A DNA stretch of 5,872 bases from Bacteroidales bacterium (GTDB taxonomy: Bacteria > Bacteroidota > Bacteroidia > Bacteroidales > UBA932), in assembly GCA_017509375.1 (NCBI GenBank), contig JAFWPT010000231.1:1-5872 (forward strand), in the 5' to 3' direction. A program made the translations under genes and the position numbers. Positions within the stretch are counted from its first letter, which is position 1, and every line of letters begins with the position of its first letter. Shown here one piece after another: positions 1,631-5,053 of the stretch. The notes beneath the pieces are model-generated. The model did not search any database and had not been told where the DNA came from. It saw nothing but the letters and a program-made list of their open reading frames with translations.

Positions 1631-3009
1631 TGGCAAACAGAATACCCAGAGTTGCGGTCCGCGAGCAGGATGCCAAGGTCCGCGCAACCAATTTCGAAGA
1701 AGTATGCTACGGCTACAACCGTGAGGAAGCGATGCTGGAGGCCAGCCGCTGCCTGCACTGCAAGAATCCCCGCTGCGTGGGCGCCTGCCCAGTGAGCATC
1801 AAGATTCCGGATTTCATCGCCAAGCTTTGCGAGGGTGACGTCAAAGGTGCCGCTGCCGTCATAGCTGAAGACAGCTCCCTGCCTGCAGTGTGCGGACGCG
1901 TGTGCCCGCAGGAGACCCAGTGCGAGGGCAGCTGCGTGCTGGGCGTGAAGGGCGAGCCTGTAGCAATAGGCAAGCTGGAGCGTTTCGTAGCCGATGCCAC
2001 CCTCGGTGAGGCCAGTGCCGAGTGCGCACCTGCCAACGGCATCAAGGTTGCGGTCGTGGGCTCCGGCCCTGCAGGGCTTGCCTGCGCATCCGACCTTGCC
2101 AAGTGGGGTTACGACGTCACCATTTTCGAGGCCCTTCACAAGGCCGGCGGCGTGCTGGAGTACGGCATTCCCGAGTTCCGTCTGCCCAAAGACAAGGTGC
2201 TGAAACTGGAAATCGAAGAAGTCCGCAAGCTCGGAGTGAAGATAGAGACCGACGTCATCATCGGCAAGACCGTCACCATCGATTCCCTGATGGACGAGGA
2301 AGGCTTCAAGGCCGTTTTCATCGGCTCCGGCGCCGGCCTGCCCAAGTTTATGAATATCCCCGGAGAGAACCTCTGCGGAGTATTTTCCGCCAACGAGTTC
2401 CTCACCCGCAACAACCTCATGAAGGCCTGGAGGGAGGACTACCTTACCCCTATCCACGCCGGTAAGAAGGTGTGCGTAGTGGGCGGCGGCAACGTGGCCA
2501 TGGATGCTGCCCGTACGGCCCTGCGCCTGGGCGCCGAGGTGCACATCGTGTACCGTCGTACAGAGGCCGAGCTGCCCGCACGCCGCGAGGAGGTGCATCA
2601 CGCCATCGAGGAAGGTATCATCTTCGATATGCTCACCAATCCCGTAGAGGTGCTTGGAGACGAAAGGGGTTGGGTACGTGCCCTGCGTTGCATCCGGATG
2701 GAACTTGGCGAGCCCGACGAGAGCGGCCGCCGCAGCCCTGTGCCCGTGCCGGGAAGCGAGTTCGACATCGAGACCGAGACCGTCATCATGGCCCTCGGTA
2801 CTTCCCCTAACCCTATGATTTCCAGGACTACTGCCGGTCTGGAGACCAACCGCCGCGGCTGCCTTGTGGCAGACGAGAAGGGTGCTACCACCCGTCCCGG
2901 CGTGTTCGCAGGAGGAGATGCCGTTACCGGTGCCGCCACCGTGATTCTGGCTATGGGAGCCGGACGTACGGCAGCCAAAGCCATCGACGAGTATATCAAA
3001 GGTCTCTGA
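1630..3009 (+). CDS. nfnB: NfnB-type large subunit (GltD/NADPH-dependent glutamate synthase small-chain-like oxidoreductase)
   Basis: This 459-residue protein belongs to the family of GltD, the dihydropyrimidine dehydrogenase N-terminus and NfnB/SudA; databases often call it NADPH-dependent glutamate synthase (gltA). With NfnA next door the likely role is the NADPH- and ferredoxin-interacting, FAD-containing bifurcating subunit. Residues 1-125 hold the iron-sulfur domain with C41-x2-C44-x4-C49-x3-C53 and C88-x3-C92-x5-C98-x3-C102, then IGKLERF with E117. By analogy with dihydropyrimidine dehydrogenase the ligands should be C41, C44, C49, C102 for one [4Fe-4S] cluster and C53, C92, C98 plus E117 for the other, leaving C88 free. 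The FAD fold shows GSGPAG at 144-149; the NADPH fold shows GGGNVAMD at 285-292 and YRRTEAELPARREE at 308-321. FAGGDAVTGAATVILAMGAG (426-445) is the C-terminal FAD contact. No glutamate synthase large subunit is adjacent, which favours Nfn over glutamate synthase. The gene's end overlaps the convergent aroD-aroA gene. Confidence 0.9.
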   Translation: MANRIPRVAVREQDAKVRATNFEEVCYGYNREEAMLEASRCLHCKNPRCVGACPVSIKIPDFIAKLCEGDVKGAAAVIAEDSSLPAVCGRVCPQETQCEGSCVLGVKGEPVAIGKLERFVADATLGEASAECAPANGIKVAVVGSGPAGLACASDLAKWGYDVTIFEALHKAGGVLEYGIPEFRLPKDKVLKLEIEEVRKLGVKIETDVIIGKTVTIDSLMDEEGFKAVFIGSGAGLPKFMNIPGENLCGVFSANEFLTRNNLMKAWREDYLTPIHAGKKVCVVGGGNVAMDAARTALRLGAEVHIVYRRTEAELPARREEVHHAIEEGIIFDMLTNPVEVLGDERGWVRALRCIRMELGEPDESGRRSPVPVPGSEFDIETETVIMALGTSPNPMISRTTAGLETNRRGCLVADEKGATTRPGVFAGGDAVTGAATVILAMGAGRTAAKAIDEYIKGL

Positions 3010-5053
3010 CCCTGAAGAAATCGGGGAAAGATTTGCTTACGCAGGCGGTGTCGTCTATCTGGACGGGACCGCCTGCTCCTATTGCGGCCACGCTGAGAGC
3101 CATTGCCATGCGGTGATCGTGGCGGGAAGTGTAGGCTCCGCCGTTGAGCAGGCGTCCGCTCAGCAGCCGGCTGACCCAGGTCTCTCCCTGGACTACAAGT
3201 TCGTCGCCCTCGGCAGCCGCTTCTACGCCCATCTGCTGCAGCATTTCCAGCACTGCGCGTGCCCTGTCCGATTCCTTCCCTGCAAGTCGGCCGAGCCCGG
3301 CTATGCGCGATTCTCCGGCGCAGAATGCCGCCAGCACTGCCACTATGGGGAAGAGGTCGGGAGCGTGGTTCAGGTCGATACTGAAGCCTTCCAGCGGCGC
3401 CCGGCGTACGCACAGCGTCCCGTCATCCATCTGGGACACCAGGGCTCCGGCTTCCACCAGTACGTCAATTATGGCTATGTCGGCCTGAATGGAGCTCATG
3501 TCCATCCCTACCAGTTCTGTGCTGCCGAATATGGCACCGGCCACCATGAAATTGGCGGCGGCGCTCCAGTCGCTCTCTATGCCGAACGATGCGGCGCGGT
3601 ATTTCTGTCCTCCCCGTACCTTAAAAGTGATACCGCTGCAGCCGCTCCAGTCTTCCGCCTCCAGCAGCTGGGCGTCACCTTCCATCTCGCTCTTGGTGCC
3701 GATTCCGAAGTGGCGGAGCACGTCGAGGGTGATGTACATATAGGGTATGCTTTTGGGCTCGGTGACGTGCAAGGTGCTGTCTTTGGCGCACATAGGCAGG
3801 GCCATCAGCAGGCCGGAGATCAGTTGCGACCCGCCGCTGCCGCTAACTTCGGCATTGCCGGGTATGAGCTTGCCCCGGACGGTGAGAGGGACGTGTATTT
3901 CCCGTTTGCCTTCGGTGGGGGCATCGTCGTCGCCGTTGGTGAGCAGCACTCCGAAGGCGGCCATGATTGCCGCGGCCGAGTTCATGGGACGGCGGGGCAG
4001 GGTGCCGTGGCCCTCGATGCGGAAGGGCTTGCCGTTGATTGCCGCCAGCACGGGGATGCTGAGGCGGGCCAGCAGGCCGGATTCGCCTACGTCCAGCGAC
4101 TCCAGGGCAGTGCCGGGGAGTGCTTTGATTCCGTTGATTATCAGTGTGCTTCCTTCTTTTTCGACGCCGGCTCCGAGGGCTTGCGCCACCTTGATTGCGG
4201 CTTCGCTGTCGTCGCAGGGGGAGTAGTCGGACAGGCGGGATCTGCCTTCGGCGAGCGCTGCGGCAAGTATTGCCCTCTGGGCGAAGCTCTTGGAGGCGGG
4301 CATACGGAGACCGCTGCGGTGGAAGCCTTTGGCATTGCAGTAGATTTGTGCCGCCAATTCCGCTGCGATGGGCTGACCGGGGGCGGTGGCCTCCTCTGCG
4401 TTCAGTGCAGCGTAGGTGAAGGGGGCTCCGCGGCGGAGGCAGGAAATACGGCTTTCACGCCCTTCTTCACCCATTCCGAAGGCCACCAGACGGCCCTGGA
4501 GCGAATCGATGTCTTCCAGCACCAGGCTGTAGAGACTGCCGAGCCTGGCGGCGTCTTCGGCTGAGTGACAAGTGGTTACAATCTTGGCTATGTCTGCTCC
4601 GTAGCGGAAGTAGCGGGCGAGCGCCATCTGCAAGCCGTGGTCGTCGGGGGTCTCGAGGAAGTTGTGGTAGGAGCGGATAATCTCCGTTCCACATTCTTTG
4701 CACAGCTTCTGGAAGCGGCGGCTGAATCCGGACGGTGCTTCAATTTCCAGGTCGGCAAACCTGGCTCCGGCCTGAATTGCGATGGACAGGCGATGCTCCG
4801 CGGTGTCCCAGTCGGGAGAGGGGGAGTTTTGCGGTGATGCGGCAGGCTCTTGGGAGGCGGCAGGTTGCAGGACCACGGCAGGTACCGAAACGCGGCAGGT
4901 GGCGATGAGCGGCACGTCGGTCTGCGAAAACAGATCCTCTATTTCCTCGTCACTCAGCGGACACAGGTCCATACGAATCTCCGCCATCTCCAGGGACGGA
5001 AGCAATGAAAGTATCTCTTCGTAAGTCTTATGTTGAAGGCTCGTGCAAATCAT
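2996..5053 (-). CDS. aroD-aroA: Bifunctional fusion: type I 3-dehydroquinate dehydratase (AroD) + EPSP synthase (AroA)
   Basis: One uninterrupted 685-residue frame carries two shikimate-pathway enzymes. Residues 1 to about 235 are type I dehydroquinate dehydratase (dehydroquinate to dehydroshikimate). They show E25-x-R27-x-D29, the SYHNF motif with H130, the Schiff-base lysine K157 in DIAKIVT, MG at 194-195, R202 in SRI, and APGQ ending at Q227. Residues from about 243 to 685 are EPSP synthase (shikimate 3-phosphate plus PEP to EPSP). They show K255-S256-x3-R260, GTLPRRPM (350-357), S409-Q410, S435 and Y438, D566, KESDR (593-597), DHRMAM with R648, and K674 in SKSFPDFF. All main catalytic residues of both halves are present, so both are probably active. 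Length fits the sum of about 230 and 430. The ATG at 5053 is fixed by an in-frame stop 15 bases upstream. Odd points are an Ala/Pro/Ser-rich insert at residues 57-82, the usual GNAGTxxR replaced by GESGLLAR (323-330), and GSQ in place of SSQ. The fusion joins steps 3 and 6, which are not consecutive. Confidence 0.95.
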   Translation of the reverse strand: MICTSLQHKTYEEILSLLPSLEMAEIRMDLCPLSDEEIEDLFSQTDVPLIATCRVSVPAVVLQPAASQEPAASPQNSPSPDWDTAEHRLSIAIQAGARFADLEIEAPSGFSRRFQKLCKECGTEIIRSYHNFLETPDDHGLQMALARYFRYGADIAKIVTTCHSAEDAARLGSLYSLVLEDIDSLQGRLVAFGMGEEGRESRISCLRRGAPFTYAALNAEEATAPGQPIAAELAAQIYCNAKGFHRSGLRMPASKSFAQRAILAAALAEGRSRLSDYSPCDDSEAAIKVAQALGAGVEKEGSTLIINGIKALPGTALESLDVGESGLLARLSIPVLAAINGKPFRIEGHGTLPRRPMNSAAAIMAAFGVLLTNGDDDAPTEGKREIHVPLTVRGKLIPGNAEVSGSGGSQLISGLLMALPMCAKDSTLHVTEPKSIPYMYITLDVLRHFGIGTKSEMEGDAQLLEAEDWSGCSGITFKVRGGQKYRAASFGIESDWSAAANFMVAGAIFGSTELVGMDMSSIQADIAIIDVLVEAGALVSQMDDGTLCVRRAPLEGFSIDLNHAPDLFPIVAVLAAFCAGESRIAGLGRLAGKESDRARAVLEMLQQMGVEAAAEGDELVVQGETWVSRLLSGRLLNGGAYTSRHDHRMAMALSVAAIGAGGPVQIDDTACVSKSFPDFFRVRDL

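Follow-up and report, generated by a model that had tools for sequence, protein, structure and literature searches.

We analysed a 5,872-nucleotide contig of a Bacteroidales bacterium (JAFWPT010000231.1, assembly GCA_017509375.1), referred to throughout as the window, that carries a single gene in which a type I dehydroquinate dehydratase (AroD, step 3 of the shikimate pathway) is joined in frame to an EPSP synthase (AroA, step 6). The gene and its parts are located as follows.

2996..5053, minus strand: AroD-AroA fusion gene, 685 amino acids from ATG to TGA, an open frame with both Pfam domains and with fused homologs
4352..5047, minus strand: AroD half, type I dehydroquinate dehydratase, residues 3-234 (PF01487)
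4664-4666, minus strand: catalytic H130 of the AroD half
4583-4585, minus strand: K157 of the AroD half
4310..4351, minus strand: AroD/AroA junction, residues 235-248, placed from the domain limits, the structure model and a reading of the DNA
3011..4309, minus strand: AroA half, EPSP synthase, residues 249-681
4289-4291, minus strand: K255 of the AroA half
3356-3358, minus strand: D566 of the AroA half
3272-3274, minus strand: E594 of the AroA half

Open reading frame (ORF) analysis of the window found no internal stop in this frame. An earlier note on this DNA had described the enzymes of steps 3 and 6 as joined in frame, with the junction at about base 4334, and this was confirmed, the frame being open throughout. 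Pfam recognised DHquinase_I at residues 3-234 (E 2.6e-33) and EPSP_synthase at residues 249-681 (E 5.9e-74). By sequence the N-terminal half is assigned to the AroD fold, with positions 1-227 of the 230 in the PF01487 profile covered at 116.5 bits (cut-off 22.2). The C-terminal half exceeded the NCBIfam aroA cut-off (TIGR01356; 297.3 vs 287.25 bits) and is an EPSP synthase rather than MurA (murA model 37.4 bits vs a cut-off of 392.7), and a fold search also returned the EPSP synthase fold, with listed matches spanning only residues 241-685. In the predicted structure (predicted template modelling score, pTM, 0.89) the last AroD helix stops at residue 238, residue 244 begins the first AroA strand, and the relative placement of the halves is confident.

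Every active-site residue checked was present in the window protein, in agreement with the claim of the earlier note that both halves keep their catalytic residues. These are E25, R27, R54, E103, H130, K157, R202 and Q227 in AroD, positions chosen from alignments and known motifs, and K255, R260, R330, R355, S409, Q410, S435, Y438, D566, K593, E594, R597, R648 and K674 in AroA. Alignment to the E. coli enzyme equates K22, R27, D313, E341, R344, R386 and K411 with window residues K255, R260, D566, E594, R597, R648 and K674, and reveals three differences (T97 to L, S169 to G and N336 to R). Across 136 aligned fused sequences (rows) the Schiff-base lysine (K157) was K in 135 and the catalytic histidine (H130) was H in 134. 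The N-terminal half would accordingly be expected from its sequence to dehydrate 3-dehydroquinate and the C-terminal half to make EPSP, each with its own complete active site. As a separate observation, the equivalent of E. coli T97 (L327, window 4073-4075) was L in 127 of the 136 fused rows and in 16 of 27 free rows, so the response to glyphosate should not be assumed from E. coli.

Distribution of the fusion in Bacteroidota

Whether other proteins share this two-domain architecture, a point raised in the earlier note, was answered by a database search in which all 120 listed homologs (of 6807 matches) contained both domains. Two homologs (P0001 and P0002) were 100% identical across 96% of the query and were found on three and two contigs, respectively, making an assembly error unlikely. 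A scan of relatives, limited to one genome per species, retained the best 80 of 198 relatives, and titles among these 80 were Bacteroidales, Bacteroidia, Rikenellaceae, Bacteroides and Candidatus Cryptobacteroides.

Genomes were further sampled at three taxonomic levels, with completeness filters of 85 or 90% requested although the completeness fields were empty, and most were metagenome-assembled. The family sample comprised 99 genomes of the GTDB family to which relative G001 belongs. AroD and AroA occupied one frame in 61 of them, 53 read in sequence and eight counted by frames (G055, G068, G071, G080, G090, G109, G115 and G120); the remainder comprised 25 with free AroD, 3 with a split fusion, 1 with AroD-AroE-AroK, 4 with AroB-AroD, 1 with a weak broken match and 4 without AroD. 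The order sample (295 genomes) gave a type I match in 75 and a frame of at least 560 residues in six. Five of these also belong to the family sample, and the other one, G264, carried aroB-[AroD-AroA]-aroC. In the phylum sample (392 genomes) a type I match was found in 30, 22 of them above the cut-off. Sixteen matches besides G001 exceeded 50 bits, and the 15 loci examined consisted of 7 AroD-AroE, 3 AroB-AroD-AroE, 1 AroD-AroE-AroK, 1 AroD-AroE-AroA, 2 AroE-AroK and 1 unfused locus, none with AroD-AroA alone. Within these samples the fusion was mostly confined to one Bacteroidales family. Although 76 plasmid records were matched, none covered more than 80% of the query and no plasmid-borne fusion was found among them.

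An assembly or sequencing error that merges two adjacent genes would find suitable material in relatives that do hold aroD next to aroA, with an overlap of 4 bases in one of them (L213). Against this, open frames ran across both domains in the 61 family genomes, including contigs of more than 2 Mb in G029, G036, G092 and G116, and every listed homolog held both domains. Occurrence at this frequency in the family leaves no place for a frameshift artefact, and we regard an artefact of any kind as exceedingly improbable. It is important to note that bins may in some cases be mixed, since a pair of contigs from one bin (L009 and L064) carried fusions that differ from each other.

Several further multi-enzyme frames were encountered. 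AroD-AroA-AroC formed a single 973-residue frame in one genome (G084; L181:1863-4784). AroD-AroE-AroK was located at L108:5942-7939 and L233:3515-5497, AroB-AroD-AroE in L230, L231 and L232, and AroD-AroE-AroA at L234:3720-6545. In L143, L144, L147 and L148 AroB was fused to an AroD half that scores weakly.

Pathway complement and fate of the fused halves

The pathway set was examined in 26 fusion genomes picked from the best 80 loci. Each possessed a single DHquinase_I match, whose frame was never shorter than 655 residues (in G020, two pieces of one frame), and type II dehydroquinase was detected in none of the 26, while the same search was positive in 7 of 14 control genomes. Free AroA was likewise not found in the 26 genomes, as all 26 extra EPSP-family matches, spread over 24 genomes (G005 and G018 had the fused match only), were MurA; five were assigned by NCBIfam, and four of these served to build a MurA profile that identified all 26 (715-940 bits vs 24-54 for AroA). 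Shikimate dehydrogenase was present in 25 of the 26 genomes (24 above the cut-off) and shikimate kinase in all 26. The expectation of no separate aroD or aroA thus held in every fusion-bearing relative examined, and judging from these relatives the window's own genome probably lacks them as well. One genome, G036, has in addition to its fusion a second, free AroD (L135:4196-4822) that retains the checked residues and lies about 1.1 kb away from tyrA.

Dehydrogenase and kinase were themselves joined in one frame (AroE-AroK) in 11 of the 26 genomes, with Pfam domains confirmed for three, and both domains were found in all 120 listed AroE-AroK homologs. Ten of the 11 carried this gene in the operon pheA-aroB-aroC-aroE::aroK-tyrA-aroG, in which only steps 3 and 6 are missing; the exception, L087, had a chorismate mutase-AroB fusion instead of pheA-aroB, and tyrA was undetected. 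The window falls within a 21-row subclade (FastTree, local support 100) in which AroE-AroK was found in 10 of 10 genomes tested, so its own genome probably has AroE-AroK too. In this subclade steps 3-6 would be carried by two complementary bifunctional proteins, AroD-AroA (3+6) and AroE-AroK (4+5). The chorismate mutase part of PheA was fused to AroB in L087, L149, L164, L166, L168, L170, L172 and L174.

Conservation of the two halves was compared over 14 AroA and 6 AroD positions (E103 and R54, which vary more, were left out), and all were kept in 112 of the 136 fused rows. Among the other 24, 14 had one changed position, contig-end cuts or both, and in 10 the AroA half was clearly decayed. 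Six of these (L163, L165, L167, L169, L171 and L173) belong to genomes with an additional, free AroA located in another operon, L146 (G118) also belongs to a genome with a free AroA, and L158, L156 and L175 are decayed second copies in genomes that hold an intact fusion; L146 and L156 are decayed in the AroD half too. Clear decay of the AroA half was thus restricted, in all ten cases, to genomes that possess another AroA, the outcome to be expected were the fused AroA ordinarily functional. Apart from the decayed copies, no second AroA was found alongside an intact fusion among the strong matches listed.

The same decayed rows bear on a structural or dosage role, in which the fusion is retained because the AroA half stabilises AroD or sets equal amounts of the two enzymes. 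Eight of them (L163, L165, L167, L169, L171, L173, L158 and L175) have lost AroA catalytic residues and kept the checked AroD residues, with the dead half still carried, and the confident placement of the halves in the model is consistent with a structural contribution. A dead half could nevertheless persist without any role, and AroD is commonly found free of AroA in this family (25 of 99 genomes), leading us to consider this role rather unlikely.

The fusion gene was interrupted within AroA in three genomes (G041, G059 and G074), at the following loci.

L139:4525-7766: split fusion
L132:4961-7835: split fusion
L140:773-5355: split fusion

The order at these loci is an ORF with AroD and about the first 70 AroA residues (including the catalytic Lys and Arg), an EamA transporter ORF and an ORF with the remaining AroA. 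The EamA domain was confirmed for L139, near-identical ORFs were present in L132 and L140, and a Fic-domain ORF was additionally found in L140 (G059). An intron was rejected as the cause of the split, as Rfam gave just one tRNA at each locus and the insert is a transporter ORF. No other AroA was found in the three genomes among the matches listed, and a natural split, working EPSP synthase is possible in them.

Gene order and proposed origin of the pairing

Gene order was surveyed in loci with and without the fusion. Of 14 order-sample loci, six had separate aroB-aroD-aroE-aroA, with aroC next in five, and the other eight comprised one B-DA-C (L210), one B-D-A-C (L213), three B-D-C, one D-E-C, one D::E-C and one B-D. 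Family members without the fusion showed B-D-E-A, D-E-A-C, B-D-EK-A, fused DEK plus A, or adjacent unfused B-D-A-C, and aroE was missing in three unfused loci (L122, L127 and L213). Among the 136 fused rows, where contig ends hide some neighbours, 45 stood alone, 42 had aroB just before, 38 had aroB before and aroC after, and 11 had other surroundings. The fusion stood alone in all 11 AroE-AroK genomes; in the other 15, aroB lay just before it in 11 and it was alone in four.

Trees were quick or FastTree reconstructions. A combined AroD and AroA tree with one Klebsiella outgroup placed 54 fused or split rows on one side of a branch (Shimodaira-Hasegawa-like approximate likelihood ratio test, 100), with free operons outside. 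A clade made up of the 51 fused rows alone was rejected by the approximately unbiased (AU) test (p 0.007); this set left out the three split rows, which fall inside the 54-row clade. AroB of the AroE-AroK-type operons formed its own deep clade of 17 rows with support of 100. For AroC, an unconstrained search did not recover the 16 operon rows as a clade, but forcing them together gave a better score (p 0.814), which is compatible with a clade. G023, with a lone fusion and the same AroE-AroK operon, was placed apart from the window's subclade. This pattern is consistent with a second operon having taken the place of aroB, aroC, aroE and aroK on two or more occasions, and interspecies transfer would be the likely means.

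Our preferred reading, to which we give a probability of roughly 80%, is that the gene encodes a genuine bifunctional AroD-AroA enzyme whose pairing is due to gene order rather than to substrate hand-over. The ancestral operon would have been aroB-aroD-aroE-aroA-aroC. After the departure of aroE, aroD and aroA would have lain side by side and been joined end to end, in a single event as regards the main clade. A subsequent change in the window's subclade would have supplied aroB, aroC, aroE and aroK from pheA-aroB-aroC-aroE::aroK-tyrA-aroG, and the fusion would then stand alone as the sole source of steps 3 and 6. These two steps need no substrate passage between each other, and the doubt voiced in the earlier note, that channelling between neighbouring steps does not explain the pairing, proved justified.

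Four points weigh against this reading. The NCBIfam type I aroD model matched residues 91-233 (E 2.6e-23) with 83.3 bits, under its cut-off of 139.3, indicating that the AroD half is divergent. Position 103 of AroD, a glutamate in the window, was E in only 95 of the 136 fused rows, D replacing it in 29. The rooted trees were quick and used a single distant outgroup, and they do not settle which group is sister to the fused rows; departure of aroE ahead of the fusion is accordingly a likely order of events rather than a demonstrated one. Finally, L210 (G264) may represent a second fusion; with it added, the resulting 55-row clade was absent from the best tree and yet not rejected (AU p 0.255).

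The complementary pair of fusions could also be viewed as a two-chain AROM, in which AroD-AroA binds AroE-AroK and steps 3-6 proceed in one complex, 3-dehydroquinate entering and the product leaving on the AroD-AroA chain. If so, it would be a bacterial two-chain counterpart of AROM, the intermediate being handed out to the 4+5 protein and back to the 3+6 protein. The two fusions jointly cover steps 3-6 in 11 of the 26 fusion genomes, and AroE-AroK was found in every one of the ten tested from the window's subclade, but aroE and aroK were apart or not both found in the other 15, and the AroD-AroA and AroE-AroK genes are not adjacent. The separate deep clade of AroB from the AroE-AroK operon further makes the pair look like a replacement, and we judge such a complex improbable. 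The suggestion in the earlier note of a scaffold for AroE and AroK gains one circumstantial point, the AroE-AroK fusion in the window's subclade, but the co-occurrence of the two fusions looks historical. As gene order accounts for the AroD-AroA pairing, neither the dosage nor the scaffold idea is needed.

Related multi-enzymes and neighbouring genes

AROM, the fungal pentafunctional polypeptide, also holds a type I dehydroquinase, and its five activities are ordered B-A-K-D-E with the kinase between AroA and AroD, whereas the window protein has DHquinase_I followed by EPSP_synthase only. An unfused operon, aroB-aroA-aroK-aroE-aroD (L238:152-4486), has a gene order that we take to be close to the AROM domain order. 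AROM (PDB 6hqv and others) shares with the window protein an EPSP synthase within a multi-enzyme chain. Plant and chlamydial AroD-AroE enzymes (DHQ-SDH; PDB 2gpt and 6bmb; NF006802) likewise have an N-terminal type I dehydroquinase in a bifunctional shikimate enzyme, but they join the consecutive steps 3 and 4 with a shikimate dehydrogenase partner whereas the window fusion joins 3 and 6; the window protein has no shikimate dehydrogenase domain and reached 22.2 bits with NF006802 (cut-off 598). AroD-AroE fusions occur within Bacteroidota as well (L211, L224-L229 and L235). AroA is similarly joined to a non-neighbour enzyme, with other partners, in prephenate dehydrogenase-AroA (NF011381) and AroA-cytidylate kinase (NF008816), models that the window protein matches through AroA only and far under their cut-offs.

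The DAH7PS-chorismate mutase of Porphyromonas gingivalis is also a Bacteroidota bifunctional aromatic-pathway enzyme of non-consecutive steps, although of different enzymes, and a regulatory link with interdomain crosstalk has been reported for it (PMC12202928). A count of multi-domain EPSP synthases describes the bacterial ones as usually two-domain (PMC9394408). No described AroD-AroA enzyme was found among the papers listed in our literature search, which reached few subscription papers, no NCBIfam model for AroD-AroA was among those matching the window protein, and no PDB chain with AroD followed by AroA was among the chain matches. Shikimate gene fusions are reportedly the subject of Richards et al. 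2006, where an earlier mention of AroD-AroA may exist. The novelty that the earlier note left tentative consequently survives in part, as fusion of AroA to a non-neighbouring enzyme was already known and the AroD-AroA combination appears undescribed.

These results suggest that non-neighbouring pathway enzymes can fuse because an intervening gene left an ordered operon, and not through selection for hand-over. Bacteroidota present the free operon, adjacent genes, D-A, D-E, E-K, B-D, D-E-K, B-D-E, D-E-A, D-A-C (once) and a re-split fusion, and this whole series of states allows stepwise study of how AROM and comparable multi-enzymes arose. Annotation may also benefit, as few fusion proteins carried a name in their source, each for one half only, and several AroE-AroK fusions were labelled hypothetical protein.

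The remaining features of the window, the last two given as context only, are listed below.

5076..5106, minus strand: promoter-like stretch 5' of the fusion, TTG (5104-5106), 20 bases and TATCTTCG (5076-5083)
1630..3009, plus strand: gltA-type oxidoreductase, convergent neighbour (TIGR01316, above cut-off)
5210..5662, plus strand: D-aminoacyl-tRNA deacylase, divergent neighbour (PF02580, TIGR00256)

The promoter-like stretch presumably resembles the Bacteroidetes promoter consensus. The gltA-type gene shares 14 bases with the 3' end of the fusion gene and is in stop/start contact at 1630 with an FAD/NAD-binding gene (PRK06222), the two occupying positions 770-3009, and we presume that this pair may be NfnA-NfnB and not glutamate synthase.

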